This document shows, piece by piece, positions 1,613 through 40,570 of a stretch of DNA of 64,000 nucleotides; within the stretch, counting starts at the first letter, position 1; the number at the start of each line of letters is the position of its first letter. Source of the stretch: Antedon bifida (lineage: Eukaryota > Echinodermata > Crinoidea > Comatulida > Antedonidae); contig OY727101.1 of the NCBI GenBank assembly GCA_963402885.1, positions 18,824,417 to 18,888,416 on the forward strand, read 5' to 3'. A program made the translations under genes and the position numbers. The notes below the pieces were generated by a model that saw only the letters and a list, made by a program, of their open reading frames with translations, was not told where the DNA came from and did not search any database.

Positions 1613-4600
1613 GACCTGGAAGTTCCCATCCTGCTCCTTCGTAACGTCTGCTTTTTCTGTGACAGCAATGGCCTGTCCGTTATGCATAACTGCTTTGATG
1701 GTTCAACGCCGGAAGCCTTACACTTTGGCCTAGCTCATGGACTCATCGCTGTTGTAGCTAACGTAAGTATATATATTTAGCATAAACATCCATTCAGAGA
1801 GAATGAAAAGATAACCAGAACTAGAACTCTATGGACTACCAGACTATGGACTTCAGGTTACATTTTTTGTTTGTTTTTTAAATCTCATTTTTGTCCTAAA
1901 GCTCTGTCTACACTATGAAACTAGTTTGACTAAAAAAGTGTGATGTGGCCAAATACAGTAGTGGTATGCCCAAATATATTAGTGATATGACATCATTTCC
2001 ATATATGGCCACATCACATTTTTTTGTCACATTAAGTTTGATAGTGTAGACAGAGCTTAAGTGAATAAGTGTGACATATAGCATATTCAATAACAAACTT
2101 TTTTTAATTCACTTCAACAGGACAATTTTTCTTAAAATTTTTATTAGACAGCTTTATGTAATTTTTTTGCGTGGTAAACAATTTATTCAATTCATTTATT
2201 GACTTTCACCGCACATTCAATATTGTCATAATATATAGCAAACAAAACTACTATACAATGCTTACATAGTGGCATTATAACAATTGACATCATCCGCACT
2301 AAAACACCCACCAACCTTCATTAAAAAAATTAGAATAAATAAAGTAATTGGAAAAGTTTTTGTATTTTTTCAGCTTCGTATCTGGCTACATATCCACGCC
2401 GTTATGCAGTATGTTGCGCCACTACGTGCCCACGTCATCAGGTAAAATAAAACATTAACGTAACACATTTAATTTTTATATGTTACATTTCATTCATAAA
2501 ATATGTAATGTTCTACTAAACGCAGTCCAAGTTGACGTACAGTATGTGATATCATAAATATCTACCTGTTCTTTTAACCTAATATCATTTATGAGGTATT
2601 TCACAGTTCTCAATACTGTAAAATATGGCATTGTTTGTTCAGTGTATCAATATAGATAAAGTGGTACATGTGTGTGTCACACATGGTTACCGTAGCATGT
2701 ATTTTTTAAGTTAAGTTATTTCTGCATGGTTAAATACAGAGGTAACATGGTATACATGTGATGCTGTTACATGGTAAAGCATCACGTTAATAGAGGTGTC
2801 TTCTTAATAGGGGTTTCCATGATTGGGGTTTCCCCTGAATAGGTTGTCCCAAGAGCATTATTTGTCCTATCAGGTTAAGGCAGAAATCATGAATAATTCA
2901 TGATCCTAATTATTTTCTATGATAAAGAATTAGCTGATCTACTTCCTAAATATAACTTAACCTAACCCTCTAAACTCTCTCACCTATTAAAATAAACATG
3001 GATGATGTTAATGGGCATCGAACCCAGGACAACATACCTTTAGTCTGAAGCCTACACCTCTCGACCATATATTTGGTATGGCAAAACCTGTTGACACAAG
3101 GTATTTGATGTCTGTCCATGTTAATATATAGCGTTGGTCATGAATTATTCATGATTTCTGCCTTAACATTATAGGAGAAAAAATAACGCGTCCCAAGAGA
3201 GCATTTCCACTGTAATATAAAAATTGAGTTGACTTGATTTTGTTTCCATTCATAAAACACTAAATTTTATTTTTACTATGAATATTAATGTTTAATTCGA
3301 TTGCAAATGTATTTTTTTATAATTCCCAATTCGCAGGTATCTCTGCAAATTGAACGACAATGATCTACGTCAAACAAGTGCTCGCAATATGGCGGACATG
3401 ATGTGGAACATGATAAAGGAGCCGATCGAAACCGCTTTACATTTTGATGGAGACAGTCTTGAACTAGCTTATAAATACTTTCTATCTTCTACTCTGACGA
3501 TGCGGCTCACAGGGTTGAACCAAATAACGGTCAGTTGATTTTTATTTAATTATTTTTTTGCGTTATGGAAAAATTAGAATAGAAAATATTAAAATAAATG
3601 TTAATTTGAATTTAATAGAGGACAAAATATAATTAAAGATGTATTGTCCCCTGAAAATATAATTTTTAAATATTTTTAATGTCACATAAAAGTGATCATT
3701 TTTGACCGAAAATTGGACGGAAAAAATGTATTTACCTGAAGAATCAGTAATTTAAAGCAAAAAAAATTAATTCATAATCAAATTGGCTGCCAGCCAGTCT
3801 TTCTTCAAATTGATTAAAACAATATTTGAACTGTACTTGGACTGTATTATATTTCGCTGTCTTTAGTTCAATACTATTGTATCACATTTTGTATTGTTTT
3901 TTGCAGAGTCAAATTCATCTTTATAATGAAATCTGCAGTAGTGAATCTATAACAGACAGTGAAAAGTAAGTAATTAAAAATATTGAAAAGACAGAATAAT
4001 AATAATGACATGAATAATGGATTGACAAGAAAGCTGTATTTTATAGAGGGCAATTTGCAAATGAAAGCATAGTCTTGACCTCTAAGTTTTGGGAAAAAAA
4101 ATAAAAAAATACAACATCAGGTTCTTAATTTTATAATTGTTTGGCCCTGGGCACCTTCCCCTCTTATTTCAAAATCCCTGAAAAGTCTCAATGTGCTGAA
4201 CATTTTTTAAAAAGTAATAAAAGCAGAACAAAATTAGAGTAAAAACAGACATTTTTATGAACTTTTGGCAGTTCTTTCCAGACAAGATAGACAAAGAAGG
4301 TTTTAATTCATTTGTTTTTATTTTTTAGTGTTGGAACACAACTGGCCAACTGGCTGTTAGAAAAAGAAGTTGTGGAGCATATATTTGGTCCTAATTTGCA
4401 TCTAGAGGTTAGTTACTAACTAAAAATTAGTATTTTTATTTTTGCATGTGATTGGCCCCAGAGAAGAACAACAACCATGGGTTGATGTGGGCCTCTGTGG
4501 TTAAATAAACTGAACTAATACATTCAATCTTTTATTTCAGAATCTCTGGTCCATAGAAAGTAAAATTATGTATAAATTAATTTTTTTTTTAAAGAAAACT

Positions 4601-7152
4601 GTATTTACCACAACTCATCTCAGGATTATGATGATTAATATAAATAAATGAAAGGTTAAATGAAAATGTAACATTAAAATTTCCAAAGATAAGAATGCAT
4701 TACACGCAAGGATCATCAGGAAAAGGCGTGTCGTTAAAAGTTTTAAAAAATATATTTTTTAATTGACTTCACATGATTACTAAACTAAAAAGTAAAAGTT
4801 AAACTAGAATTTATGCAAAAGTGTGATTATTTTATGATTTATTTATAGATTGTAAAGCAGTGTCAGGTAATTTTGAATTTCTTAGCCGCCGATGGAAACA
4901 TCACCACCAAGCATATTGACTGCATCTGGAACACAGCCCAACTTAAACACTCTAGTCGTTATGTACATGATCTGCTACCTCACCTCATCAAGCACCTGGA
5001 ACCTGTACCCCTATTTCATCTATTGAAACTTGTATCTAGCCTCCCACCCTCGGCCCACACTGAACAGGTTAGTGGATAGATACACATTTTTCTGAATTGG
5101 TAAAGTTTTATTTGCCATTAAATCACCTATTAGTACATAATATAGATACAAACAAACTATATCATTCCTAATCATTATCAAAACCAGGATTTTATACTGT
5201 TCAACAGTATAAAATCCTGGTTTTGATAATGTTCTCATATATTTGTGACTCATTTCTCAGTCTTCGTGCTATCTGTATGAGTCACTTCTGCTATCTTCCA
5301 TTCTAATTTGTGTCAGGTGTGTGTAAGGTAGTATTTCCCATGGGTGAACTGGTCCTAAGAGACAATTTCCTGTTTAAATATTAGAAACATGCTGCTTGAC
5401 TGGAATAGTAAATACTATCTTCTGAAATTGTAATTGTGTAAGAAATCACATGATGCTTGCTACTATATTACACAGACATAGATAATTTAAATTAAATTAA
5501 TAATCAATGTTTCATATTATTAGATAATTATATAATAATGCCCCTCTCATATAATAATTTAGTCGATAATAATCCTTCTATTGATATTTTATATTGAGGT
5601 CTTAGTGCCTTTAAAACCTGTTTAAAACATTCATTCAATTTTTAACCATCAGTTGTCATTTGCTTTTTGCCCTTTCTTTTTTATACCGAGCATTCGTTTA
5701 CCCTTAATTTTTACAATTGTTACCGTTTTTTATTTGTAACCTATGCCTGTCTACCTGTTGTTTTCGTCTTGTTGTTGTTTCTGTGTTTTTTTTATATTTA
5801 TATTATGTCTTTATTTAAGACATCCTGTTTAGCCTTGGCTATTGGATGTAAATGTGAAATAAAATTTTTTTAAATAAAAATAATGATTGGTGTAACAATG
5901 TTTGCCCTACTACTGATTGTACTTTATGTAAAGTACATATTGAGATACATTGTTCTTAGTCATACTATAATTCACAGTTCTAACCAATTTATGACAAAAA
6001 GACAGGTTTATTTACACACATGTTTATAACAAATAACAATGCTCTGAGTATTATAGTATAGATAATGCACAGCAACGCTCAACAAATTTGTGCAAAAAAG
6101 GCTTGCAAGGATTGATGACTGGTATACATACATATTTAGAACAGAATTTTGGGCCAAATAAAGACACAGTAATTGTTTGTTTCTAACTCATTTAATTTTT
6201 TTGTATTAATATATTTTTTCAGACATTATTTTTAAGTCAAGTTCTAACCAAGTGCATTTGGAGCAATGCTCTATCAACTCAAGTCGTTACGTCTACCCCG
6301 CATAAAAAGCCCCAAGCGCAGTATCCTGTTATTAGAAGAAATTTACAAGGTAAATCCTGTTTAATTAGAGAACAGTAGAACTTCGGAACACCCTATAAAG
6401 GAGACTTTCTTTCTTGTTAAATGCACTAGAAGCAATATATGTTTAAACACTACAGCCAACATCATTCAGGGAACACCCCATTTGAGGGAATACCCCTTTT
6501 AAGGAGAACATTTCTTGGGAAACGAACTAGAAGAATGTTTAAACAGCTACAGCCAACACTATTCAGGGAACACCCATTTAAGGAGGATCACCCTCATAAA
6601 ATATTGTTGAAATAAAATAAAAAATAAGGAGACCATAAAAAAGAATGGCAATATATATTAAAGGGACACTTTGTTGTCTCCTTTAAGCCCTGTCTACACT
6701 ATCAAAAAAGTGTGATGTGCCCAAATATGATAGTGATATGACATCATCGTGTCCATATATGGTTACATCACATTTGTTTTTCATATAATAAAGGTTTGAT
6801 AGTGTAAAGAGAGCTTAAGGGTTTTTGTGTATTAATAATACTGATTTGGTTGATTTTTTTCTTGATTGCAATACTATACTACCTGGAGAAATGTTTTAAT
6901 ACTCTTAAGCTGTCTACACTATCAAACTAGTTTGACAAAAAAAGTGTGATGTGACCAATATATGGGCACATCACATTTTTTGTCACATACAGTTTGATAG
7001 TGTAGATAGAGCTTTATTATGAATTGTATAACTTGTGTTTAGGTATGCGTCATGCAGGGCATCACAGTCTTAGCAATAGCAATGAGAGTATGCACACACA
7101 AGTTAGTGATGTTGAACAGGAAACTCATCACCACTTCCATAGAGATGATGAG
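1613..7152 (+). CDS. USP34: USP34 exons 1-8 of window: N-terminal helical-repeat region
   Basis: Exons: 1613-1762, 2374-2441, 3337-3529, 3907-3965, 4329-4407, 4849-5067, 6223-6349, 7043-7152. They encode about residues 1-335 of the visible protein. Motifs matching vertebrate USP34 include RIWLH, RYLCKL, SARNMADMMW, LTMRLTGL, VVEHIFGPNLH, HIDCIW and QLKHSSRYVHDL. This part is an ARM/HEAT-like helical scaffold ahead of the acidic linker. The last two exons turn low-complexity (several His and Ser), where vertebrate proteins also have a variable linker. Phases across all seven junctions agree (for example 68+193 and 59+79 nt are multiples of three). Exon 1 here has an in-frame acceptor (AG at 1611-1612), so it is an internal exon and not the true first exon. 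Confidence 0.95.
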
Positions 7153-10100: not shown

Positions 10101-13100
10101 TTGAAGGATGCCTTGATAATTTAAAACACCACCGGTACGATTTTTGTTTTTAAACTGTTCTGTAAAACTGTAGGTCCAGTATTCACAATTCGCTTATTTG
10201 TAGATTATCTCCTGTAGATAACAGTAGGGAGTTACTTGTACATATTTCTTGTCATTGATGAGTGGTTGCCTGTAGTGGCGGCATTGACACGATGTGACCT
10301 GGAGAGGAAAATTCATCATTCACAACTGTCGGGTGCTTCATATTATTTCAATAATTTATATTACTTTTCTTTTTCAGATCCGTTGTCGTATCTTTAAGAC
10401 TTCTACCTAAACTGTTTGGTTCTTTTCAACAATATAGGAATAACTGTAATACCCATTGGATTACTATGTAAGTTTATTTGATTAAAAAAATTGTTTTATT
10501 ATATATTGAGAAGTTGGTAATTCAGAAATTTTAAACAAACACTGTTGTTTTCGTTAATCTAAACATCAGTGCCAGAATTCACCAATTACAGTCAGATAAC
10601 ATTTCAAATTTTTTCTGTTTTGTTCGTGAATGTATGATGGCCAAGTGTACAATTTATAACTGATTTATGATACAGGGATGCACAGTTGTTCACAAGTTGA
10701 TATCTACAAACTCTTTTTTGCAGGTGGGCAGAAGAGGAGCTTCACATGATGGAACATTTCTTTAAGGATTTAGTTTATTATACACAGAAAAGAAAGAATG
10801 GAGAAAGGGATAAAGGACTGTAAGTTCCATTTTAGGTTTATATAATTATATTAGAAAGGACACCTTCAATACTGTATATCCTTAGTGGTGTATCCTTCAT
10901 TAAACAGGAAGTGTCTCCTTAGTAGTCTCTTGTAGTGTAATTGTATTGATTGAATATATCATATTTGCCATGAGTAATGTTTTTGGCTGTTATTTTAACT
11001 GCATTTTATATTGTTTTCTTGCAATATCTGTTTCTACTGTTCATTTGAAAACTCCTGTATGCATACAAACAGGGTCTCAATACATTATAGCATTAAATAA
11101 ATATAAAACCACAGGAACAACATACACATATAATAAGTAATACATGATTATAAAAGATGTTTATTCTTTTTATTTATCAGATATTCCCATTCAACCGAAG
11201 TGCAAGTCCGTCTTCAATTTCTAAACTGCGTGTTTTCCACACTTGGTTCTCCGGATGATTTCAGTAAGTGAAATAACTAAATTGGTATTATCTTATTAGA
11301 ATTCAAATTTGTTGTGACACAAATCTTTTTTATTGTTATTTGTAGGGTTATCTGTAGATCAAGTGGACATTCTTTGGTCTTGCCTTGCTACGGACGAAGA
11401 GTGTTCTGATGGTGCTTTAAACTGGTTTTTAAACCAGGCTAGGAACAAGGATCAACAGCATCCACTGGGCCTAGAAACATTTAAACATATCTTTTTTAAC
11501 AAAGTAAGTCTATTGTAAATGTAACCACACAGCTAAAAGACATGCAGGCCATCGTATGTACCCTGCAATCTGTAGGCTTATATATTAATTCCTTCTCTCC
11601 AGTATAGTATTTTTGTCCTCCACACTTCCTTAGGCTGCCGTCGCTGCATCAGTCTATCTCCTGTACCCAAGCTTGTTCATTTTCTACAATTCTCCCCGTT
11701 TTCTTTAGGTCTCCCTACTGTTCTCTTGCCTTCCGATAATCTGTAGGCTTAGCTCCAGATTTTCTACTTTAAACATACCTTTACAGGCAGACATGTGGGC
11801 CATCATATATTTGATATGCCATGTATTAAAACAGTAGGCTTAGCTCTTGATTGCCTACATGTTGTGTTCAAGTAAAAGGGGAATGGTTGAAACTATACCA
11901 ATCAGATAGCATCAATTAATTTTGAGGGTCATGACTATGTTGAGGGTCATGGTTATTAACCAATCAGATCACATGTTCTAACTTCATGGTTATTAACCAA
12001 TCAGATCACATGTTCTAACTGCATGGTTATTAACCAATCAGATCAGATGTTCTAACTTCATGGTTATTAACCAATCAGATCACATGTTCTAACTTCATGG
12101 TTATTAACCAATCGGATCAGATGTTCTAACTTCATATCACTCTTATATTATTTATTTCAGATGCCTTTACTTGAAGCTGACACAATCAGTATGACTGGTT
12201 TAAAGCTATTTCAACAGTTATGCAGCTTAGCTAGACTGGCTAACTCATCTTATGACAGCCCTGCGGTAGAGGTATGTCATTTTTCTAAACAAGAGTATTT
12301 AATAGATTTTAAGAACTGTTTATTTTCTGTTATCCTTGCATATTCTAAAATTTAGATAATGAATATGCAACAATACTACTAGAAATCATTTTATGAATCA
12401 CTTATTTGCAATGTGTTTTCCTAATTGTAAGATTATTTTTTTCTAAGATGCCTGGGATTGAACAACTGTGGAAAATAGCATTACGAGCCAAAAATACAGA
12501 TGTCAGCATATCTGCTATACAGTACTTGAATACTTATTATATAAATGGTGAGATTTCTGATAAAAATGTTTTTTTACTTCTGTTTCTTTGAGGTGTAATA
12601 TAGAAAGCCGATTAAATTGTGCTTAGCACTCATGGCAATCCTCAAGGTGCTGCATCGTTTTCATTGTATTTTTTGTTAATTTTTTACCTGAAGATTGAAT
12701 AGAACAAAACAATAATAAAGTGAATTGATTTATACTATAATTAATTTGATATCTAAAATTGAATCATTTTATTTTGTTGGCAGCTGGTAATGGCACATTA
12801 GAGAAGGAGGAGGAGTTTATTCAGCTATGCATGGAGAGTTTATCAGGTGCGTCAGCGAAGCTGGCTGACTCGCAAGAATCTAGTTTACTGGTGCTACAAA
12901 GAGGTTTAATTTTATTAAAGACACATTTAGAAGCTTTTAAGAAAAGGTAATTTTTTTCATTTTAATAGTTTACTATTGCTATGGCAGATGAGATATGCCA
13001 ACAAAATATATATATAATTTTTTTTTTTAATTCAATAAACATTTATTTGCCGTACAAATAATACAGAGCATAAGTTATAAGTCACCTTAGGTTTAACCTA

Positions 13101-16100
13101 TAGACCAAACATAGCCACAATGTAGCGCCTAGCATCAGTAGAGAGAGATCCCTTACTTTATTATAAATTTTATGTGCACATGACCAACAATTTTACATCC
13201 CATCTAAAGGACAAGCCAATGAGCATATGAGCAATATGGCACAGATATTTCTCGAACCCATGCCTCTTGCATGCTATTCGTATATCCCCATCTATTATGC
13301 CATATTTCTTTCATTTAAACAAGGCATTTTTAATCACCTCTTTGCGTTTTTTATCACAGATATTCATATCACTTACGGCAATGGCAACTGCTCAGTAAGG
13401 GCATCACAAGTCATGAAAAAAACAAAGTACAAAATGATGCAGAAGTTATCAGAGTGGTCTGTCAGATGGCTAGCATGTCTGAAAAGGTAGGGAAAAACTT
13501 TACTATTGTATAAATACTGTTTATACATAAACATAATCAAAATAAAGAAGTCTCATTTAGTTTGTTTCTCAGTAATTATTGTTGTTCAGTTTAGAATTAT
13601 TTAGTTAATAACTTACTATATAATTAAATTATTTCTATTATAAAATTATTAAATGTTTTAAAAAAATTATTCAAATACATTTTTTTCTTCTTTTTTCCTC
13701 TCTCTCAGTTCACCTTAGAATTACATCTTAATGACCTAGTTGCTGACCTTAGGGCAGAGGTCACACATTTCTCTGAACGGCTACAAAAGCAGCGTGATGA
13801 CAAACCCCGACAGCCTATCACATCCACGACCCATGGCTTCTCCAGCCTGTCCAGTTTTCTACTGGATAATCACGGACCGGTGCGAATGATATCGGCTGGA
13901 CATGAGCTCACGTCGGATCTTGACGAAAAAATGCTGAAAGAGATGGCTTTTGTAGACTTCCAGGTATGTACTGTCAATGAAGTACTATATTTAGCTCTGT
14001 GGTGGTCTAACTGTATGGTACTTTCCTTGCCATTGAGTGGTTGCAGGTTCAAATCCCGCCAGAACATTTTTTTTTATTATGATAAGCTATGCTTTTTTAT
14101 GACGTCATGTTCCATGTAAAGCATTTTCCATTATTTTATTTTTGATGGGTCAGACCTTTTAATCTCATTACCTCACAGTTTCATAAGCTATGTTCTATAC
14201 GTTTGTGAAGTCATTATCCAGGAACCTGTTTTTATATCTTGGCCTGGTTTTAAATTATACGCCAATTTTTTTAATAAAAAGGTTTTTTAATTCAATATAA
14301 ATTATTAATAAATTGTATTACAGCTTGTTTATGTATCTTTTGGAGCTATACGAAGAGAACGTAAACGGGACACAATGGATCTACCGTCGTCATGTCTACC
14401 GCCCCCACCTCGGGAGAAGTTACCCATGATGCTTCTTCTGCAAGAACCATACTTTAGTTGTCTTTTAAACCTTCTACAACAATTGGAAGATATGAAGTGT
14501 GAATCACAGGTAAACACTAGCTTACCTAAAATGACCACTATTCAGAAAGTGCTGTTGCAGAAAAAACTTTAAAAAAAATATTTCTTTTACCTGAAAAATG
14601 TAAAACAAAAAATGTTTTTGGTTAAATTTAATTTCTTATATTGTCAATTTAGAAGTGAAATCATTATTTTTGTTTGTTTTTGTTCTATGGAAGTGAATAA
14701 CTTTATTAAAACTGAAAAATCTAATTTTTCATGTTTTGATGGACAATACATGTTTAACTTGCTAAAGTAAACCACTGACTTCTGGAACCATTTCTTGACC
14801 CTGTGGAACTAGACACTTTTTTCTTAAATACAAGACTATTTTTTTATTACGATCCCTTTTTCATCATTGTCTTATATTTATTATACAGTAATAGGTAGAG
14901 TATGTTCTTTAAATCCTTAAAACCTAATTTATAATATTATATAGATATAATTACGTTAATATTTGTCTTTGTTTTATTGCAACAGGATGAGCAAAACAAA
15001 CAAGACTACATGTCCAGGGCTCAAGTACTATCAAGAAACGTCTGGGATCTATTAATGCTCCTACCAACCAGTGCTGATATGCTTAATAAATTTAAGAATA
15101 TTAAAGTTACTACTAAGGTCAGTAGAACCTCTATTAAGGGGACACCTTTGTGACCCAACAAAGTGTCCCCTTAATGGTGATTGCCATAGTGTATATTGCT
15201 TTCTTGTTGGTTTCACAGGAGTTCATTTAAGTTCATGGATCGAAAAAAAAAAATGATTTACCTGAAAAAAGGTAATTTTCAAAGCAAAAATACTTAAATT
15301 GCCTGTCAGACAATGAGGTTTTGGTTAAACTTAACCATTTATATTGTCTTTTTACAAGTGAAATGATTGGGTTTTTTTTCTACAGAAGTGAATAACTTTA
15401 TTACAGCTGCAAAATAGCATATTAAAAGTCTGATTTTATTAATCTTCATTTTTCATGTTTTTGGGGGAAAATACATCTTTAATAGGAGAATATATTAAAG
15501 GATAAGCAAGACTGTGCCATTACTGTAGATTTAATTATTGAAATTATTGAAATAAATTAACTTTTTAAAAATGGAATAATAATTTATTTAATATTTGTGA
15601 TGTTTAGGAAGAACAAACCAGTAGAAGGTTATCAGATGGCAATGTGCAGTCAAGCGTTAACTGGAGTGAGTTGTTAGATGAGAGCAAGTTGCATAAATTA
15701 CTGTACTCATTACAAATCATTGAAACACTTGGACAACCTGCTAAAGGAAGCAAAAGAAGCAAGTCAGTGGTAAGTATTAAGAAATTTATTTCTTTTGATC
15801 ATATCATGCAATGTGGAGAATCATGGATTTTGAAATATGGGGCAGAGTGCCTAAAGCTCTGTCTACACTATCAAACTTTATGTGACAAAAAAATGTGATG
15901 TGCCCATATATGGACATGATGATGTCATATCCCTACCATATTTGGGTACATCACACTTTTTTTTGTCAAATTAGTTTGATAGTGTAGACAGAGTTTTACA
16001 CTTTTTTATACCATCACCACCCATGATTGGGTCGTAAAATCTAATGCATCTTTATGGCTGGCCATCTTGAACCAAAAGAAGACCAACAATGGACCATTTT

Positions 16101-19100
16101 AATTTAATCTTCATGTCCATTCCTTCAGAACACCTCAATTTTAAATTGTTGGAATAACAATAAATGTTATATTTTGTAGGCTGCTATTGGTAGGGCTGAT
16201 ATTTCTCAACAACCTGGGACTTCAGATTTAGGCACCTTACAGGTTAGTAGTAGTATCATATTATTGTAAGTACTTACTTGGATAAACCAATCAATGCCAT
16301 TGTTTTCTCTTTGAATTGCCACATGTTATAATATTTACCTTCATCCAAGTAGCATATAACCTTATTAAATATATGCCAATGTTTTACATTGAATACAGTA
16401 TTTGAACTTATTACTTTGCTTATACAAACTTATAACAAATATTGTTTTTTATTTGTTTTAGGCTTCTAAGAGTGACTCGTGTTTGTATAGTACTGAATCA
16501 GATGATGATAGCAAAGATGTATGGTCATTAATGGTAAGAGTCTCATACTTAAAAACATATGAGCATGTACAGAATGACTTTTGTACTCAACAGCTACTTA
16601 TTCATGATAATAAAAGCTCCTTATTCTTTCTACTACTAAGTTTTTTGTTAGGACTTGGTTGTTTTAATGCTTTTGATTGTGTTTTTTCGTTGTCACAGTT
16701 TATCAAGACCGGTGGTTTAAAACATCTTTTTAGCATCTTCATGTCTGGCCATCTTGAACCAAAAGAAGACCAACAATGGACCATTGTAAGTTTAATCTTC
16801 ATGTCCATATATGGGCATACCACATAAAGTTTGATAGTGTAGACAGAGCGTTAGAAATGTAAAACATATGTACTATGTATATGAATTGCTTGAATACTTT
16901 ATTTTGTTTTTATTTTAGTGGCAACAAGATTGTTTAGCTTGTGTTCTTAAACTGATCAATGAGTTTGCGTTGGACCAGGTGACAATGGAAATTGGACAAG
17001 ATGACGTGTTTGACAGTTTGCCAGAGTTTGACGTATTACCTAAGAAGTCAAGGGGCGGGAAGAACAAACCATTCACGGATGAGAAGAAGTCTGTCAAGCG
17101 GCTGTCACAAGTAAGTAACTTACTCTCTAAAGAAATTTCTGAAGAGTAGAAAATCTGATGGTTTTTGGACTTTTCTGGTTGTTCTGAGAGTTTTTGACAA
17201 AAGTTTATGCTTTTTATTTTAGGAATTGTTAGAGATGATGTCACAAGAAGGAGTATTAACTAAGTTAATGGATGTTTTGTACCAAGCAGCTGCAATGCGG
17301 GAGACTGGGCAAGTGCAATCGGGCTATTGGGGTAAGCAGATTCAACAAATATTTTGTCAAACGCAACCGACAAGTCCTTGTGGCTGTATTCAACAATCAT
17401 ACAGGCTAAGGGAAACAGTTGCACTTAAAATTTTACAAATTCTCCTATGACTTTAGGGGAACACTTAAATATTTATTGACTAAAGTGAAATACTTTAAAG
17501 GAAAGATCTCACTTAAGTGTAATTGATTGAATTTGAATCATACAACATACTATTAAACTCTAAATTTACTCTACAACATAATAGTGTATAGATTTAAAGA
17601 AACATTAATTTATTAATTAAGATCATTTATGCTTACAGTTGTGCATTATGCAATGATGCTACTCAAGTCCTGGGGAACGAGCAACTCAACGGTCAAGAGT
17701 CAGTTGGTCAAAAGTCCAAACTTTGACCAATGGCTACTTCGCATGGTGTTAAAAACACCAGAGGTATGTTTTGGGGTCTATTTTTATCAACAGTATAAAA
17801 AGTGTTATTTTGAGTTTTTTTTAAAATTCTAGTAGATTTTTATTTTAACAGGCTTTTCAACAGATTTAGAATGCTTAGAATACAGTAGATATATTTATAT
17901 TATGAATGGTAATGAGGTGCACTTTTTTATATATATATGTTAGTTGTTTTGTCAGTTATGTATTCTTTGTCCTGAAGAGGCAAGTATACAGAAAAAATAA
18001 ATTAAATTAAACCTAAAATACTAATATTTTTCAGAGGTACGTTCGGAATGAAGTTCGCAACGGTTTGTTTGATCTTTGCGAGGACAACAAAGAACCTTGT
18101 CAGAAATTTATATGGTCCCTTCTTTCAACTCTCCTTAATTTCTTACCAGTTGCCCAAGAAATTAAACCAAAGAAGGTGAGTGGATTTATTTATTGTCTGT
18201 CAAACCATTGTCTGACAGACAATTTAAGTATTTTTTACTTAATTACATTTTTTTCAGGTAAATAATTTTTTTTTCTATCCAATTTTTGGTCAAAGTGAAT
18301 AACCTATGTGACATTAAAATGGCATATTAATTTTTTAGGAGGACAATATATCTTTAATGTAACAAAACCAATCATCATAATATTCATTCATAGTTTATTA
18401 TTTTTTTTAGTATGGTTTTTACTAATTTGTGCTCATATACTTTGTTACTATTAAAAATGGTTAAGGCAATTAAAAAACAATTTCTACTTCCTGAGTACTT
18501 ACATGGATAAAATAGAAAATGCCATCATTTCACAATTGCTTTTACCAATCTTCTCCAGTTTGATGATGAGTATGATAATCCAGGACCTGGTTGCCGTGAC
18601 TACTTCTGGTTATTGTGCGCTCTAATGGACAAGGTACAACGACCAGAGGATGATGATGAGTTTGAGAAGATGATCATTAAAATTAATTCCATAATAGAAC
18701 ACCTTGCAGAGGCACTTACGAGGTAAATTTATGAATTTTCTATGAAACATGACCAAGTGATTTACCTTTTACAAAATTCGAAAGGATCCCAATGGAAATA
18801 AGCTAATAAGCTTTTTGGGATATCCTAGACTTTTTTTTGGTAAATGTCAGTAATCAATAATTTTCCAAATAAATTCAAATTAAAGATAAAATAAGATGTA
18901 GGAAACTTTATTGTCAAATTTACAACTGAGGTAAACATGGATTCTTGGTTGTTGACCATGAATCATAGTGAGTTACAATGTATAGTCTAGACATATTTAT
19001 TATAATTCTCGCAGACACATTATAAAAATAGAATAAAAAATATAAATATAAAGGCATCACATAAGTAGAAATTTATCATTAATAATATAAAAAGGAGCCA

Positions 19101-22100: not shown

Positions 22101-25100
22101 AGGACGCCCTCATGGGTAACAAAGTGCAAGGTATGACGCACCTTTTATATTATTTCATTATAACATTTTTCTACTGCAACATACACACTCACTGTTTATA
22201 AATTGTTTGTTTTTTATAATATACAAAATTAGTTTGTTTCATTGTCATTGTTTATGACATATGAACACCATCGTTACAGAGGAGGCAATATATCTATATA
22301 TAATGATATTCAAATAATAAAATATTTTTATTTTTACAGGTGAAGAAGATAATTTAGATTATCTATATGGGTTAGTGGGTGTGACAGTGCACACAGGGAC
22401 AGCAGACGGTGGCCATTACTACAGTTTTATCAAGGACCGTATACACAGCGACGCCCAGCGTGATAGATGGTATATGTTTAATGACGCAGAAGTTAAACCA
22501 TTTGATTCTACCCAGTTAGCTGCCGAGTGCTTTGGTGGAGAAATGACGGTAAGACTTGGATTTTGATTTTTCGGATATGTTACACTGATAGGCAAACTTG
22601 GATGTATTGTCCCCTAAAAACGTAAAAAATAAAGATTAATAAAATCACACTTTGAATAGATTATTTTGTAGTTTTAATAAAGTCAATCACTTCACTGGAA
22701 AAAAATGGAAAAAATCAATGTTTTCACTTATAAAATGACAAAATAATCGGTTGATTTCAACCAAAATCCCATTAGCTGGCAGCTAATTTGACTATTTTTT
22801 GCTTTAAATTACAGTTTTTTAGGTAAATAAATTTTGTTTTTTCCAAATTTTCGGTCAAAGTGGATAACTATTAGGTGACATTAAAACAGCATATCAAAAC
22901 AAAAATTTAAGAATTATTTTTTTCAGGGGGACAATATACATCTTTTAAGTAAACACTGAGTTTGACATGAAAAGTTTTCTAGTGTAGACCAGTTGATAAA
23001 CTACATATACATGCATTAAACGGGAACCAAAGATTAGTATAAATTTGATTCATGCTCAATATTGTGATCTGTTCAACTGCTTTTCATTTTCAGACAAAGA
23101 CGTATGATTCTGTGACTGACAAGTACATGGATTTCTCTTTTGAAAAGGTACTGCAATGATAACATGACATTAATTGTAATCTTGGGACATCCCTATTAAA
23201 GTCACACTTTCTGTAAAAAAAACATGGCGCGATATATGTTTTTAATACTATGGGCAATCCCTATCCCTGGAAAACCCCTATTAAGAGTGATCTCCTTATT
23301 TGAGTTTGTACTGTGTATTGAACATAAAAGATGGAATATGATTTATTAGAAATGCTTTCAATTACAGACACACAGTGCATATATGTTATTCTATGAGAAA
23401 ATAGAACCAGAGGAGTCTAAGAGGAAGGCAGCTAGTGTCTTGGACCAGGTCCAGATGTCTAAGGAACTTGCTCAGGTAATTAGCATACTTATACTCATTC
23501 AATATCCTGTTAGCCTATAAAACTGTTAGCTGTTAATTCGTGAAAAAAAGGCTTAAAGAAATGCTTTTGTTTAATTACTGGGTGTCATTATAAACAGTGC
23601 CAGGAGTCTTACTTGTGAATGTTTGTTTTGTGAAAATTTTGTTTAATTTTTAAATGACTAAAAATGACTTAGATGTAAAATCCCTAGGCTAGGCCTAGCT
23701 ATCATAGGTCTAAATCATCCAGATTTTGGGGGGGAAATAACTAATTTCGGGGAGGTGGGGATCTGCATTAAAAATGGGAAAACACTTTTTTTTTTTCAAG
23801 TTGTTGACTGCACATCCATAATTGCCATATGTTAAACTGACCAATCAAAAATGATTTAGGTTTCATAATGCATTGCATATGTATGAAAACAGTATAGCAT
23901 TAGCAATTGTTTTTAATTTGTTAAACTATTGTCTTCTTCTGTAGTCCATATGGCAGGATAACATGCAGTTCTTACGGGATCGTTTCATCTTTGATCGTCA
24001 GTACATGGACTTCATGTGGAAAGTATGTCACCCACTTCCAGCTACGCTACCACAACCACAGAGCTTTCAACCAATGAGCTCCAAGGTAGAGTGCTTGCAA
24101 TTTTTCTTTTTATGCTCCACTAACTTTTGTATAATACCACTTTTTTGACACTGCCAAGCTACACTAATAACAAATCAGTGTTTGGATAAATTGACGTATC
24201 ACTTTACCCAGGTGGTTCAGCAACCCAAGTAAATTTTATGTTTACACTGATCTACATTTCCGTATTTGTGCATCAGAGCATGACTCGAGTTACATATTTG
24301 CAGGTAGTCTTCATGTTCAATTGACCATCCATAAATCCTTTGATTCATTCTTATATAGCGCATATAAGCAAGCTCTCAATGCGCTGCACATTATTATCCC
24401 AGTAATTTTTTTGTTAAAACATGTATCGAAACATACTCCCATAATAATACTCCTAGCTAGTAATCAGTGCAAAAGTGTGTCTTGATCTGAACGATACCCA
24501 TTTTATACACCTGGGTGGAGAGAGGCAAATGTAAGTAAAGTGTCTTGGCTAAGGATACAAGCAATGCGGCGAGAGTAGGATTCGAACCACGATCAGTAAT
24601 CCAACGTCCAACACACTGCGCTACACTCCCTTACACATATATTTATATATATATATACAGTAAATATAATGTGTTGTTGATTTGTTTTTACAGTTGACAA
24701 CCTGTTTTGTGCTTGAGACGTTAATCCATGCAAAAGAAAAACCCATTATGGTGCAGTGGATGGAACTGATGACGAAGCAATTCCACACATGTCCTGAAGC
24801 GTGTGAGGTAAATAATAATACTATAATGCTCAGATTTCAACAGTTGGTTCCCTAAAGGCCAATTTACACAGACGAGCGGTAATGGTAATACAAATATAGA
24901 ATGTTATTTCTTATGGCCATTTACACAAGCAGTGGAGCGGACGGGTGGTTTACACTCACGATAAATACTGTAGGACAAGCTACGCGCTTTTCCGCTTACT
25001 GCTAGTTTGTGTAAATGGTATAAATTTAATAAATGTTTTTCAGCTAAATATGGACAAAAGCCTGAATGTGCAAAGTGGCTCTAATGTAGAAAATAATGCA

Positions 25101-28100
25101 TGGCATGTGACACGAAATAAACCAATCAAATGGAAGAATACACTTGTGTTATAAATGACAATAATGGAAATGTATAGTTCCTGTATACAATTTACATTTA
25201 GTTTCTGGTTTTATTCTTAAAATCTGTTTATTTGTGCCATAACCATTTGTTCCATGTTTATTATCGATGGTAATATAGTCTTGTTCCTTTTGCAGTGGTT
25301 TCTTGACTTCATGGCTAAAGATGACTGTTGGCCGATACAGATTCTTATCAAGTGTCCCATACAAACGGTTAGGCAGTTGTTTCAACGACTCTGTATTCAT
25401 GTTATACCACAGCTAAGGGAGAAACATGCTCCTTTGTACATACATGCTGATGTTGATAGGTAAGTCATTACTTATACCCTTTTCACATCTGTATAAATTG
25501 TTACAACTTGTTTGATCTCCCGATTTATTAGACCTTTTCATACACGCATATAATAATCTTGGAAGGAAAGCGTAGTTGCATGCTATTTGATTACTATAAC
25601 TGGTCAGTTTGATACCAAGAACTCGGAACAAAAACTAGCCTCTCATCAGTGTGTTTTCCACAAAATTGTATTCACACTATGCAAACCTGGTTAAAACTTG
25701 TTACAACTTGTTACATTTTGCAGATGTGAAAAGGGTATTAGTAGTTGATTTTGTCCCAAACGAACTTGGATTATTATTATAGTAAGTCCATAGTCAATAT
25801 GCTACTGATAGCATGAAATAGAGTTCCAGTTTCCTTAATATATGTTTTAGCACTGCAGTTAACTCCTATTCAGGGAATACATTTATTGTATGGACACTTG
25901 AGTATTTATTTTATGCAAATTTAATTTGAATTACAGTGATGAAGATGGTTATATATCTCCGTCTCACATTGGAAACTGTTCATGCGTGACAAGGTTTATC
26001 AAGAAATTACTTTCTATTGTAAGTACTATTATAACCATATCTATAATTTATTGTATTTGTGATGTTTGCCTTTTGTTTTATTGAATAAAAGTGGTATAAT
26101 AAAATATGATATGTGTTGTTTTATTTTGCAGATTGAGCATGGGGTGAGACCTCATTGTAAACATCTGACAGAATACTTCTCACTGCTCTTTGATTTTGCC
26201 AAGATTGGAGAAGCAGAGGCAAGTTGGTTTTAATTATTTTAGTAAAAACATTGATTAAAAGCTCTGCACTGATATCATACTGCTTTAACTGAAACAGGCA
26301 GTGAGTAGCATACTATTAGACCATATATGGAACACTGCACACCTTCTTTGATTAAAAATTTGTTATCTTTTTTTTTACAGTCTGCATTTTTACTGTCAAT
26401 AGAAGCAATAACAATTATGGCTAACTTTTATCTTGGAACCAAATCTGCTGAATATGTAAGTTTGTTTTTTCATATACTAATACAGTAACAAATATTAGAT
26501 AATTTTTAAAGCACTTTCCAAACCTTTAAATATTTTCTCTTCATTTATTTTTAGGTAGAAGTATTGTCTGATGACGACAATGATGAAGATGATGATGACG
26601 ATGATGTCATCTCGTTAACTGAAGACAAGTACAGACCAATCTCGTTAGAAAAGATGATTGCCCTCATGGCGTACTTGGTAGAGCAGTCTCGACGAGACCG
26701 TCAACTTACGCTGTCTCAGAGTGATTATGCTGTTCTCGTAGGCGGCAAGGTGAGGAATTGTTTTACAAATTTCTTTGTCCCAAAGACTTGTAATAAGACT
26801 TTGTTTATGTAGAGCATCTTGTGTATGTGTTTGTCTTGTGAACCTCTGAGGGTCCCTAATGATCAGCAATAGCTGGATGGAAAAAAATAATGATGATTAT
26901 TAAAATTGCCTTTTATCACTGTTCAGGTTTTGCAAGCTCGAACTTAGCATAAGATAACGATTTCTTGTCAAGTTATCATCTTAAAATAATTTGTTATATT
27001 GTTAATTTTTATTTTTAGGGATTTCCATTTCTTTATCAACAAATTCGTGACAATATTAACATTCAACAAACGAGAAATCTGATATTTAGTCTGACGAGGT
27101 TTGCACCAAGACTTGCAGAACAGGTTAGTCTATTGTTCTTAACTCTTTTGTTTTTTTGTTGTAGTATAAGAGGTACATTTTATATTTAAAATAATGCAAC
27201 TGTAGTTTTTGCCATCATTGCAAACTCAGTGGTCTAAGAATGAATGCTTGGCTAGTGATCTGGAGATCATTGGATCATATCCCAACAGAGAACAACATTT
27301 TACTAATTTCGTACAATTACAGATAGGCAAACATGTTTCTGTGCATTGCAGTTCAGTTCCTTTTTGATGTGTTGAATTTGTATGTTTATTTTTTAGATTG
27401 TGGCCATGATATTCAATGCAATTGCTAAACTAAATCAAGAGGTAAGTTATGCCAGACCATTCTAAAGCTCTGTCTACACTATCAAACTGTATGTGATGTG
27501 CCCATATATAGACATGATGATGTCATATCACTACCATATTTGGCCACATCACACTTTTTTGTCAAAGTTCACTAGTGTAGACAGAGCATTATACTACTGT
27601 TCTCTTTATTCCCACATATCACACATGCTCTGGACAATTGCGGTCATAACTTATTTAATAATGAAGTTAACAATGGATTCATTTTCTTTGTTTTTTTCTA
27701 GGCTGGTCAACCTTTTTTCAAGCTTCTTTCGATGCTAGTGGATATGGTAGGAGGACCTCCTGGCCTGCCAAACTTCACCCCATTGATACTTCAGAGAATG
27801 TGGGAGGTAGGTATACAGAAGATATATTGTAAGGCACTGTCTAGTATAAAAAATATCTGGTCTATGAGAGTTATATCATTGTGAGAGTGTGCTTAGACTA
27901 TTCTATTTTGTTTTTGAGGGGTGTCTATATTTTGGGACATGTCGAAGCTATATACAAGTGGGTTTCTCAATCATAGACTACCAACGGCAATGTTGATTTG
28001 TGTATTTTATTAGATTGACTGTAGAAAGCTATATTATAATAGCACTAAAATAGCAACTAAAAATTAATTTCGAACTGATGTTTTTTTTTCCTTAGATTGC

Positions 28101-31100
28101 TGAGTACAATCCCCATCAAGTACTTGATTGGCTCGCTGCTCATGTACCTAGGAACAAGATAGCTCATCATTGGACACTACAAGGCATTGAGAGCTGGATT
28201 GAACATTTCTTATTAGAACATCACAACGCACGTGTTAGGAGCTGTAAGTTTGATATTTTATGTCAAAGTTTATAATTTCCACTATATGTATATATATCTC
28301 ATGCTATAATATATTTATTGCCATTATATATATATATTTCCTACACTTGTTTGTTTTGCAGCGGCTGCCTACTTGCTAGTCTCCCTTGTACCAGACATTC
28401 AATTCCGGCAAGGTTATAGGTCATCTAGGAGTATGCATAATCCACAAAAAGAACTTAACGTAAGATATACATTCGCAAATTTTACCCATACAAATACATA
28501 CTGTAGTTTGCTTAAACTTCCTAATGATAGATAATTTTGCTTTTCTCTTTTTGTTTATATAGCTAAGTTCAGAGGCTCTTGAGGTGTTACATGAGGTGTA
28601 CAGGGTGCTACTGGAGTTACTTAGAATTGCCAGGCCATTTGCAGGTACGTACATGCATAATCCAGGGAATTCCTTGCATATCCAGGGAATTCCTTGTATA
28701 ATCCAAGGTAGTCCTTGCATATCTAGGGTAGTGCTTGCATATCCAGGGTATTCCTTGTATAATCCAGGGTAACCCTTTCATATCTAGGTTAGTGCTTGCA
28801 TATCCAGGGTATTCCTTTTTATATTCCAGGGTAGTCCTTGCATAATCCAGGGTAGTGCTTGAATATCCAGGGTATTCCTTGCATAATCCTGGGTAGTCCT
28901 TGCATTATCCAGGGTAGTCCTTGCTGTAAAAGATAGTTCATGATAGTCAGGATTTTAAAAACAAATAATCTTGCATAGAATAATTAATATTTAATTATTA
29001 TTTTTATTTGTCTTTATCAAATTAGATGCATCGGTACATGGTACTGCCAAACTCGTATCGTTCTTCTCGCTTCTTAATTACTGCCTTATATCAAACACTG
29101 AGAAGCAGATGGTAAGCTTTATTGATTTATTAAATTGGATAAATTGATGAGTATAGAATTCTCTTTTCAACGAGAGTTCTGAAACATTTTGTAATTTAGT
29201 GTAGACTTTTATTGATCATAACTTTAATTTTCTTTACAGTTTAGTCCATATTTTGAAGATCTTTGGAACATCTATCTGCCAAAATTATCAGAACCACCAA
29301 TTTCATGCAATCATAACAAAGAGGTACTGTATTACTAAATAATTATGTAAAGTATAAAATAAAAAGTTTAATCAAGTTTAATCATGCCAACAAATAGATT
29401 TGTTGTAAGATATATGAATGAAATGAAATTAGAATTTTGTTGCCATCTTGTACATTGTTATAATATTTTATTTATTTCACAGGCTCTGTTAATATTTTGG
29501 TATTATGTGTGTAAAGATTGTCCTGAGAACGTACAGTTGATCGTCTCAAATTTTTTGGTTACCAAACACCTACCCTACAACTACATTTTGTAAGTATTAT
29601 ATGTTTTAAATGGTTAATGGTTTTAAATTTGTATATCGCATAATACAAATAGTCTCTATGCGCTGTGGACTCAGATGTTACACTTACATACTTCTCCCCG
29701 TCATGTCAGTGCAGCCACTATAAGGCACTCTCTCACCTGTCCACAACACAGTGGCTGAGTGAGAACTAGTACACCGGGGTAACCCCCTACTTGTCTCGAA
29801 AGATGTACTAGGTTCTAAGTGCACACGAGCAATGTGTGTATACTGGACCTACGGTTTATAGTCCTTATCATGGAAGACTTGTTTCTACCACCAGAACCAT
29901 GGAGCGAGTGAGGCTCGAACCCTAAATAATGCCACAAAAGGGCACAAACTTCTCTTTTTATTAGTGTTGATATTTGTATTTAACTACTGTGGAGTAGCTT
30001 TGTAAATTTCATTTGTTTTTAAATAATAATTTTTTTTTTAGAGCGGACCATGAAGATCAAGAGGTGGTGATGTTCAATCGTGTCATGCTACCTGCGTACT
30101 ATGGACTACTCACTCTGTGTTGCCAACAGTCTAAATCATTCACAAGACAATTAGCTTGTCAACAGAATCTACAATGGGCATTTGAACATCTCACACCGCA
30201 TGCTAACCAATATCCTACGGTAAGTTTAGCCATCAAGGTAAACTTTTAGATAATAAAGTGGCGCTGTGCCTTGGGTGTTTACATTCTTGCTTACCAATCC
30301 CAGGGTCCTCGGTTCAAATCCTGTTTAATTCCAGGATTACAGTGCCACAAGTACCTAATGAGACTTGGTTTAGAAAGTACAGGTCTCCCAATTAATTATG
30401 TGACATGACAGTGTTGGGTCCTAAAAGTGTCCCTTTATTAGAGGTTCACTGTATAATAATTTGTTCTTCAAAATAACAGTGGCATTACTTGTCTTGTTGC
30501 TAATTAGTATAAATTAATAATAGGATTCTTAAAAAAATTGTTTTTTCAATTGTGTTGCGATTATTATATTCTGTATTAATATATAAAAAGCAGAAAGAGC
30601 CAAAATATTCATAATACTGTTCTTGCTATTCTAAGGTTGTTGAGGAACTTTTTAAGCTGATGGAATTATTTGTAGAGATTGAAGCAGAAACAACTGAGCA
30701 AGAGTTGCAACAGATCAAGGATTTTAAGAAACAGACTCTCCACATGTATCTGAAGTGTCTTGAGAAGAGCTCTTGTTGGACAACAATCATCAGTGTGTTC
30801 CGGATCCTGGTGGAGAACAAAGATGACCACTTATTGGTTATCCAGAACCATGGCCTAAGCAGGTTATATGATGTAAGTCCAGTGAGGTCTGTTGTGGAGT
30901 TGTAGCTTATTGGTCAAATTCTGTCTAAACCCACGACCCTGAGATTGATAGGTTCATGGATTCAAATCCTATCTCAAGCAAGGATTTGTTTCTCACCTCT
31001 TCACTCCCAAAGTACAATACATGAATCACATTTAAGTATTGAAGGTATTCACAATAGATAAGGTAGTTTTCTTAAGCCTAAGTATAAATAATGAATATGG

Positions 31101-34100
31101 CCTTATGGTCATAGCATGGATCTATTTTATAGTCAGAAGCCTGGATGTTTCTCTCCACTCCACAACCAAAATGGCCCAATCAAACTTAAGTGAGATGTTT
31201 GAGTATTTTGCTTATTTAAGAATTTGATAATAGAGTTTTTAAATTTGAAGAGTGTTTTCCTTAGCCCACAAATAACCCCTGTCTACATTGTCAAACTTTA
31301 TGCGACAACAAAATGTGATGTGCCCAAATTTTGAGTGATATGCCCAAATTTGGTAGTGATATGACATCATGGGCACATCACATTTTTTTGTCGCATAAAG
31401 TTTGATTGTGTAGACAGAGCTTAATCTTGCTAATCACTCCAATTTCTTTGATAACCGAATTCTATCTAACAATGTTATTATTTTCAATAGGCATTTAACA
31501 CTGTGCATCTAATGTACCATGAAGCAACAGCATGTCATGTGACTGGAGATCTGGTAGAACTGCTGTCAATCATTCTAGAGGTACTGAAATGTGCCAACTC
31601 ACACTCAGAAGATAAAGGTAAGTAACACGCATTCAGAGGGTTTTAATGTGTAGTAGCGGAGTCGGCTGTTTCTTTTTATATGTTTCAACACAGCACCTTT
31701 CAACAATAAAAACAACATTGTTAATTTATACAGAATGCCTTTCTTATGAAGTTTATGTAGCGGTACTGAATTGAACCAATACTCTCCATCTATTCTACCA
31801 CTATTCTCTTTCATTCTAGATACAGTAGAACCACCTATGTGTTAACAATACAGCCAACACCTGTTCAGTTGATACCCCTATTAAGGGGACACTTTCCTGT
31901 GAAATATACATTTTAACAATACAACCAACACCTATTCAGGGGACACTTTGTTGATTCCCGAAAATTTTATTTGTTTATATATTTTTCTAGAAATTATTCA
32001 GTCCCTGATTGCATGGCAAGAACGCCTGGAGTTTGGACAAAAGTTATTGACTTTATTAAACTCCTACACACCAGACAGTGTCAGGTCAAAGGCCATTAGT
32101 AAGTATTGTAGCAAAAACTCTGAACTTAGATCGTTTTCCAACTTGGAAACTCTGGTATCTGTTACTTGATTTGACAATTCCACTCGACTTTATACTTGAT
32201 TGACCAATTTATAGAACCGGTAGTATTTAAAACCCTACATAATACCAGTAAGTTTTTAAAGTATGAGAGTGCAATGTCCATGTACCTAAAGGTTCATTCC
32301 TAACCTAATGTTCTCACCTCTGGCTAAAACATGGTTTAGAATGCTCCCAACCTCTTCACCAAATCTTGCATCAGCCATAGTTAAGGTTCCAACTAGGACG
32401 CAGCAATAAAATCACAATCGAGTTTACCAATGACAAGTGACAGGTTGAATAATCTCTCATTTGTAAATTTGTCAAATTACCTGAATGACGAGTTAAATTC
32501 TAGTTTGTTTATACGTTGCTTTATTTTTCAGGCATATTAACTCAACTTTTAATGATATATCCCAAAGAGTGTGTGAAAGAGCTTGGTCTTATCATGCATC
32601 ATGCTCACAACCAATTCCAGCGCACAACTATGCCAGGTATAAGATACAAATAATAATTTAAATAGGTCTACTGTAAACTTTGAATGCATATTACTGTACA
32701 AATTCAAGTAACATTTCTGGATCTGACAAATTCTTAAAAACTCCAAGTGCACCTGAATCGCTGTAGTGTACCTCCACATATGGCATTATCTGTTCAGTGT
32801 CATAGACAAATTCTGTAATACACTGATACAGTGTCATATATGGTGCATGTATTGCCTATGATGCATCACATGTGACGCTTTATAGACTATTTTTCTATGA
32901 TACTATGATAAAACTTATATACTGTATATTCAGAATTTAGAATCGGCTACCAAATGTCCTTTTCAGCCATCAATATGATGACCTTAACATGTCAAACTTC
33001 ATAGGTCAAAGTTTACAACATTCATTCGTACAGCTTAAAATGTCAATTTATTGTAAATATCCCTTTTCTTGATTGTGCTTTTCTCTTTTTATAATTTGTT
33101 TACGTGATTCGTTATTTTCTAGTTCCAACTGGCCCATACTTTCCATTCCGTTCACCCAAGCCAGCTTTTAATAAAGCTGGGATTCGTCCTCCTAGGCCAG
33201 AGCTGCAGATGTTCCTACATGCCAGTCAACTAGAAACATCAAAGGTAACAACAATTATTATTATTATTAAAATCGATGTTGCTACCCAGATTATCTTGAG
33301 ATTTGTGAGGTCTGAAAGACTGTCCTATAAGGTTTGAATGAAGTGTGTATTTATATTTTCAGGGTACTGATATTGCATATGACAATAGGCTATTGGACTT
33401 TTTTCTCCCATACAACGCATTTATTGATTTACTATGCAGGACAGCCGTGGCCGAGAATATGCTATCAGAAACTGTTATCAAACTTAGTAAGTGTTTAAAC
33501 ATTTTAATAATTTTATTGATCCAACTACATTATACAAAAAAATATTATGGTACTGAACTGTTGTTTTTGTTATAGGTGCGCTTGTTGCATTAGAAGGAGT
33601 ACCTCTACAACTAACTTGGTTTGCAAATTTCTGGAAAACCATTTATGTAACCGAGGTATGTGAGATGTTAATTAATTATTGCTGTTAATAATATCATATT
33701 ATGTCAAGTACCCTTACAGAATTAGTGTTAATAAAAATTGTATAGCATTTTTAATGACTTTTGATTATAAAATGTTTGAACTCACAGGACTAACAATTAT
33801 GTTATAATCAAAATTAAACTGTTTCTTGATTTTAAGAACTGTATACACTATCAAATATGGTATTGATATGACATCATAGTGTCCATACTATACAGTATAT
33901 GGGCACATCGCATTTTTTTTGTCAGATAATGACAAAACAAAAGTGTGAAGTGCCCAAATATGGTAGTGATACTGTATGCTTAAATATAGTAGTGACATTA
34001 CATCATCATGTCCATATATGAGCACATCACATTTTTTTTGTCAAACTAATTTGATAGTGTAGACAAAGGCTCAGAAAAAAATCCCAAAACAAAGGAACAA

Positions 34101-39094: not shown

Positions 39095-39617
39095 TGTGGC
39101 TTATCTTGTGTGAATGGTTATACTAATTCTCTATGGTTTGTTTATGTTAGGTTTTATTGGATACAACAGTAATGTAGCTTAAGTCCAGTAAGCTATCTAA
39201 CATGTATGTTTATAAGTATAAGTATAAAATATGTTGACTCCATGATTATAGTAACCGTATCATTCATCGTAACGATGAAGGACGGTGTTTTTCGTTCGCT
39301 ATGATATTTACTGTAAATAATTTTAATTTTCCAAAATCTGTTAAAAATATATCTTGCCAAGTATATCCTTGAGTCTTTAGATAAAAAAAATAATATGGCT
39401 GTTTTTAATTTTTCTTTTTTAATACTCGATATTTGCTTGGAAGAAATATTTCTAATGTTTAAGGTGTCGGCAGAGAAAGAGATGTATTCGGTATAAAGCG
39501 TACTCATTATTTTATGCAATAAACAACTGATACCTTCCATGTCCTCTTGTACATTTCAATTCTTAAAAAGTTTGTCACTTTTTTATCATATAATTTTCAA
39601 CATCTTCAATAATTTAT

Positions 39618-40436
39618 AAATTCATCATTGTTGCTATATAAGTTCATCATCATTGCTATACAACATGCTATATATGTTCATCATCATGCTATATAAGTTC
39701 ATCATCAATGCTATATAAGTTCATCATCAACATGCTATATAAGTTCAACATCAATGCTATATAAGTTCATCAATGCTATATATAAGTTCATCATCATTGC
39801 TATATGAGTTCATCATCAATGCTATATATGTTCATCATCATGCTATATAAGTTCATCATCAATGCTATATAAGTTCATCATCAACATGCTATATAAGTTC
39901 ATCATCAATGCTATATAAGTTCATCATCAATGCTATATAAGTTCATCATCATTGCTATATAAGTTCATCATCAATGCTATATAAGTTCATCATCAACATG
40001 CTATATAAGTTCAACATCAATGCTATATAAGTTCATCATCAATGCTATATATAAGTTCATCATCATTGCTATATGAGTTCATCATCAATGCTATATAAGT
40101 TCATCATCAATGCTATATAAGTTCATCATCAACATGCTATATAAGTTCATCATCAATGCTATATAAGTTCATCATCAATGCTATATAAGTTCATCATCAT
40201 TGCTATATGAGTTCATCATCAATGTGCTATATAAGTTCATCATCAATGCTATATAAGTTCATTATCATTGCTATATAAGTTCATCATCAATGCTATATAA
40301 GTTCATCATCAGTGCTATATAAGTTCATCATCAATGTGCTATATAAGTTCATCATCTATGTGCTATAATAAGTTCATCATCAATGCTAGTATAAGTTCAT
40401 CATCAATGCCAACTTCATCACCGATGCCAACTTCAT
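39618..40436. repeat. Satellite, ~21-24 bp unit, about 35 copies, each with CTATATAAG-type motif
   Basis: Unit near AATGCTATATAAGTTCATCA with AACATG, ATTG and ATGAG variants. The order of variants partly repeats (for example the run with TTCAACATC, then CTATATATAAG, then CTATATGAG occurs twice), which indicates higher-order duplication. It ends about 135 bp before the TATA-like motif of the presumed Pellino promoter. Confidence 0.97.
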
Positions 40437-40570
40437 CATAATACTAGAGCCTCTGTGAGGTGATAAAAATAAAACAGTTCATCTTTAAACATTTTTTCAT
40501 GAAAATCAAACATTCATCATCCACTGCTATATTTTAATTAATCTGGTTAAATAATAAATTAATGTGCGAA

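Follow-up and report, generated by a model that had tools for sequence, protein, structure and literature searches.

Duplications that take in part of an exon, or that lie within introns, have already been catalogued. In the account of Exonize (PMC12343006), full-exon duplications are found in about 4 to 7% of vertebrate genes, and partial, inter-boundary, and intronic events are reported for significantly more genes than full-exon events. The copy that we describe here, in an intron of a USP34-like gene of the crinoid Antedon bifida, is such a case, and the duplication is an ordinary kind of event. Like the intronic and inter-boundary duplications described in PMC12343006, it is a degenerate intronic copy of a partial exon in that exon's own gene, but unlike them it takes in only 53 of the 87 exon bases together with the 23 intron bases that follow. 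It also resembles a class 2 templated sequence insertion (TSIP) as described in PMC5110952, in that a patch was copied from elsewhere, apparently with no long target-site duplication and no poly(A); however, the templates presented there for that class are remote, and RNA is often suspected as their source, whereas the template here is 690 bp away. Its short local template is a likeness to MMBIR templated insertions (PMC8421209) and to short-range template switches (PMC7954356). Microhomeology is described at the junctions of templated insertions in PMC8421209, and an imperfect microhomology is possible at one edge of our copy, but the software of that work seeks inverted copies within 100 bp, whereas this one is direct and at 690 bp. 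A narrow literature search found, among the entries listed, no case at a MITE edge like this one, and we make no claim that such cases are absent.

Results

The duplicated exon belongs to a USP34-like deubiquitinase gene

The window, by which we mean the whole 64,000-nucleotide stretch of DNA that was analyzed, sits on a 21.9-Mb contig of the 315.6-Mb, 27-contig assembly and carries a deubiquitinase gene on its + strand. We call this gene USP34-like because a downstream catalytic-domain exon, within the open frame at 22321-22563, fits USP34 (PDB chain 7w3r; E = 4.6e-30) far better than it fits the next-best match, USP9X (FAF-X; E = 1.8e-14). Pfam matches to the UCH domain are present in the gene, and the frame of the duplicated exon itself matches no Pfam family. 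In our rough self-trained gene model, which has 71 exons, some of them false, the duplicated exon encodes FIKTGGLKHLFSIFMSGHLEPKEDQQWTI, has phase 0 on both sides, and ranks 28th, a numbering that depends on the model (the initial annotation had called it exon 27). The model exons around it (15608-15769, 16180-16242, 16462-16533, and 16919-17110) are likewise joined in phase 0 throughout.

An intronic copy of the exon end, its donor, and the adjacent intron

Alignment of the exon region with the intron upstream revealed a direct copy of the exon's 3' part in the same gene (Table 1). The initial annotation had placed this duplicate at 16049-16121, within 3 bp of the edges found here, about 690 bp upstream of the exon, and we measured a start-to-start spacing of 687. 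The pair differs by three substitutions and one deleted base in 76 columns, with an alignment score of 130 compared to a maximum of 28 in 1,000 mononucleotide shuffles, and blastn of the copy within the window gives E = 3e-26. Two of the differences (C>T and T>G) are exonic, both within 12 bases of the left edge of the alignment, and the other two fall in the donor, where the earlier reading of GTAAGT changed to TTAATT was borne out. The forty identical bases reported before proved to be an exact run of 41, at 16058-16098. Included in the copy are the final 53 bp of the exon, the donor, and 22 intron bases (23 in the original); the acceptor and the 34 bp of exon next to it are absent. Exon sequence is thus matched inside an intron of the same gene. 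The direction of copying, from true exon to copy, is clear, because the copy is truncated and outside the gene model and the other member is in frame and properly bounded.

Table 1. Coordinates of the exon, its intronic copy, and neighboring features within the window
Feature	Position	Strand	Details
True coding exon of the USP34-like gene	16699..16785	+	87 bp, phase 0-0
True splice donor GTAAGT	16786..16791	+	Self-trained donor score 5.03
Template (donor segment) of the copy	16733..16808	+	53 bp exon + 23 bp intron
Intronic copy: exon 3' part, donor, and half-MITE start	16046..16120	+	72/76 columns identical to 16733-16808
Dead donor TTAATT in copy	16099..16104	+	+1 G>T, +5 G deleted; self-trained score -4.13
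Full-length MITE upstream of copy	15852..15998	.	Both ends intact; inverted ends 26 nt, 96%
Half MITE directly after true donor	16795..16854	.	90% over 62 bp to MITE at 27460-27521
18-bp quasi-palindrome, one mismatched pair	16801..16818	.	Centre 1 bp past right edge of copied segment
ATCTTCATGTC, left bracketing repeat	16735..16745	+	
ATCTTCATGTC, right bracketing repeat	16795..16805	+	

When the segment 16000-16140 was searched against the 315.6-Mb assembly, with simple repeats and very common words skipped, it matched two places only, itself and the true exon, and so shows no sign of belonging to a repeat family. The copy is flanked by AATCTAAT on the left and TCCTTCAG on the right, where the sequence reads TCCTTCAGAACACC, and at most 2 bp (AT) are repeated at its edges. 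No similarity between copy and template was found beyond 16046 in the left flank (311 of 500 shuffles were as good) or beyond 16120 in the right flank (185 of 500). A search of all 71 model exons for intronic copies, with a low-complexity filter and E values up to 1e-3, found a convincing one for 16699-16785 only; model exon 67 was rejected as MITE sequence, and model exon 47 had a 20-bp intronic match (E = 7e-4) that is near chance.

MITE sequence adjoins the template and lies near the copy

The MITE family at the locus is large, with 84 matches among the 40 that were scored of 3,653 candidates. Fourteen stretches in the window match the MITE set, or 11 not counting the two elements at the locus, full and half, and the tail of the copy. 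The dense family (6673-6830, 6888-7032, and 9 further stretches) occupies about 3.3% of the window, its ends lie near AAGCTCTGTCTACACTATC, and its flanks are often TTAA or TA. One stretch of about 250 bp, at 33839-34090, resembles two fused or nested elements, and a false model exon (33926-33973) sits in it.

As the initial annotation had stated, a half MITE, which spans about 16795-16854, follows the true exon directly and joins it at CATGTCCAT; it corresponds to one half of the element, with the left part missing. The copied segment enters this half MITE by 9 to 14 bp and ends at 16808. The left edge of the copy lies in neither MITE: on the template side it falls within the exon, and on the copy side the full MITE ends 47 bp before it, with unrelated sequence in between. 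The half and full MITEs pair mainly in inverted orientation, although the element, being nearly palindromic, yields a direct match of 26 nt as well.

The bases at the half-MITE join were compared with 39 MITE sequences, 30 fetched and 9 from the window, with one element (in L003 and in the window) counted twice. The word CATGTCC occurs 30 times in these sequences, preceded by ATCAT in 25 cases and by ATCTT in none, and the half MITE carries ATCTT, which is not MITE-typical. Either the half MITE has one substitution or these bases are old intron. The sequence ATCTTCATGTCC is absent from 33 of the 36 fetched loci, and the remaining three, L001 to L003, are the duplicate's own place.

The right edge of the copied segment lies beside the centre, between 16809 and 16810, of the quasi-palindrome ATGTCCATA/TATGGGCAT. 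There are 44 such palindromes in the window, some overlapping, and roughly 0.2% of positions are as close to a centre; this coincidence, noticed after the fact, is suggestive. Single-strand folding of the template region was not above shuffles (z of 0.27 and 0.07), and for a 31-nt palindrome piece z was -1.23, with 21 of 200 shuffles as good.

An 11-bp repeat, ATCTTCATGTC, also noticed post hoc, brackets the copied segment and occurs in the window only at its two bracketing sites and in the copy. Random pairs of 30-mers shared an 11-mer in 498 of 20,000 trials with simple repeats left in, and in 32 of 40,000 with the named tandem arrays removed and all four letters required, a run that included the locus itself and so overstates chance. 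We rejected the excision of a circle between these repeats, since genomic bases that lie beyond each of them, GC on the left and CAT on the right, are retained in the copy.

Dispersed single-copy duplicates are uncommon in the sample

We counted direct pairs of at least 45 bp and at least 88% identity, non-overlapping and spaced up to 3 kb. The 34 sources, 195,254 bases in total, were the window, four stretches of 10 kb each, and 29 MITE-containing loci, each about 3.1 kb long (L001 to L003 overlap the window and were dropped). Fifteen pairs passed, namely 10 tandem-like pairs (spacing 98 to 360), 4 MITE pairs, and the exon-copy pair, which is also MITE-tagged through the half MITE inside it and is the only non-MITE direct pair with a spacing above 400 bp. 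Dispersed single-copy duplicates are uncommon in this small sample. Because wide spacings would not fit within the short loci, the base rate is a lower bound.

The window contains other repeats. A second, older dispersed family, about 72 to 79% identical, occurs in both orientations in the same gene region (15243-15477, 22601-22841, 18205-18358, and 3632-3794), and 14616-14720 also pairs with 15319-15415. A long tandem array at 39588-40446, downstream of the gene model, has about 79 to 89% identity between shifted copies, and shorter arrays lie at 153-446, 11947-12135, and 28643-28924. In the simple-repeat stretch 46288-46920, the + strand open frames are rich in His, Ile, or Ser and appear non-coding.

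Discussion

We consider that the copy probably arose as a short local templated insertion, by template switch or break repair, and then decayed. At about 16046 in the intron, a break under repair or a stalled fork would have left an end, which then used DNA of the same gene, some 690 bp downstream, as a template for its extension. Roughly 76 bp would have been copied in direct orientation, from mid exon through the donor to the start of the half MITE, before the new strand came off the template close to the MITE palindrome's centre and was joined back. The insert, which had no acceptor of its own, would later have lost both key donor G's. Several observations support an insertion: 72 of 76 columns are identical with no flank similarity above shuffles, and a single patch that crosses the exon-intron border has an identifiable template and two genomic places. 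The pair is also the one widely spaced non-MITE direct pair of our sample, and its right edge lies 1 bp from a quasi-palindrome centre. An insertion, rather than a replacement or a larger old duplication, is our inference, as are the repair or replication step and the part of the palindrome. At the left edge, the match of 10 of 12 bases may be a priming microhomeology; the position of both exonic substitutions within these 12 bases would fit an imperfect match that was present beforehand and served for priming. Since the copy carries intron bases and the donor, spliced mRNA is ruled out as its template and a retrocopy of such mRNA is rejected; unspliced RNA is a possible template.

The main alternative, which we regard as unlikely, is that the copy predates the half MITE. 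On this view, a longer stretch of the exon and its original intron would have been duplicated, and the half MITE would later have replaced the true intron, the MITE recombining or deleting at a shared word of about TCATGTCCAT, so that the right flank of the copy from 16121 would be original intron. The match ends exactly at CATGTCCAT, a word common to the MITE, and the half MITE has no left part; the ATCTT before CATGTCC is not MITE-typical and therefore favors this older origin over an insertion. It requires, however, that a word of 9 to 10 bp occurred by chance in the old intron, and CATGTCCAT is found at 5 places in the window, 3 inside MITEs and the other two in the exon-copy pair, compared to 0.63 expected by chance. 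The right flank of the copy is also unlike the sequence after the half MITE.

The initial annotation had proposed instead that the two MITE copies mediated the event, by MITE-MITE recombination or by capture of the exon fragment, and this now appears very doubtful. Its right-hand part stands, in that the right edge falls within the half MITE, and a full MITE does lie just before the copy, but the left edge falls inside the exon, with no MITE nearby, the full MITE has lost neither end and stands apart from the copy, and the elements pair mainly as inverted repeats while the copy is a direct repeat. Closeness to a MITE is weak evidence because a member of this family lies no more than 50 bp away from 8.5% of the bases in the model's introns. 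We found neither both edges within a MITE nor the fragment in a mobile unit, and the lack of a third genomic place speaks against gene-fragment capture. The same annotation suggested, from the high identity, that the copy is recent; that age, drawn from 4 differences across 76 columns, is not calibrated by an outgroup. An assembly artefact, in which a misjoined or chimeric read put the fragment in the intron, is more improbable still, with four scattered differences exceeding the expectation for an assembly-error copy and both places lying 690 bp apart within one large contig.

Judged from its sequence, the copy is most likely a dead relic that does nothing, because the exon's first 34 bp, the acceptor, and the donor +1 and +5 G's are lost. 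The acceptors upstream of it are weak (the best scores 3.25, and the self-trained set has its tenth percentile at 3.32). The chance that random changes hit both donor G's is 0.002 for 4 changes in 76 columns and 0.0005 for 2 changes in 64, both calculated post hoc. Selection against a stray donor may lie behind this loss, a possibility raised because the acceptor at 15988 and an intact donor would form a pseudoexon; the argument is post hoc and no proof. That the copy is useful as a pseudoexon or splicing decoy is scarcely credible: were the donor intact, splicing to the weak acceptor that a MITE supplies at 15988 would produce a unit of 111 bp in frame with the exon, but this unit contains two stops, the upstream acceptors are weak, and the donor is destroyed.

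A further proposal, to which we give little credence, is that the palindromic centres of MITEs serve as sites of breakage or template release, from which short direct copies of neighboring exons are thrown into nearby introns, with selection then quickly destroying the copied donor, this last step being suggested by the presence of both key donor G's among only four differences. One small and probably dead duplicate in one intron is of little weight alone. It shows a route by which exon pieces with live donors drop into introns, and if the edges of such copies fell at MITE palindrome centres genome-wide, a common transposon would be tied to the duplication of exon fragments and to selection against stray donors.
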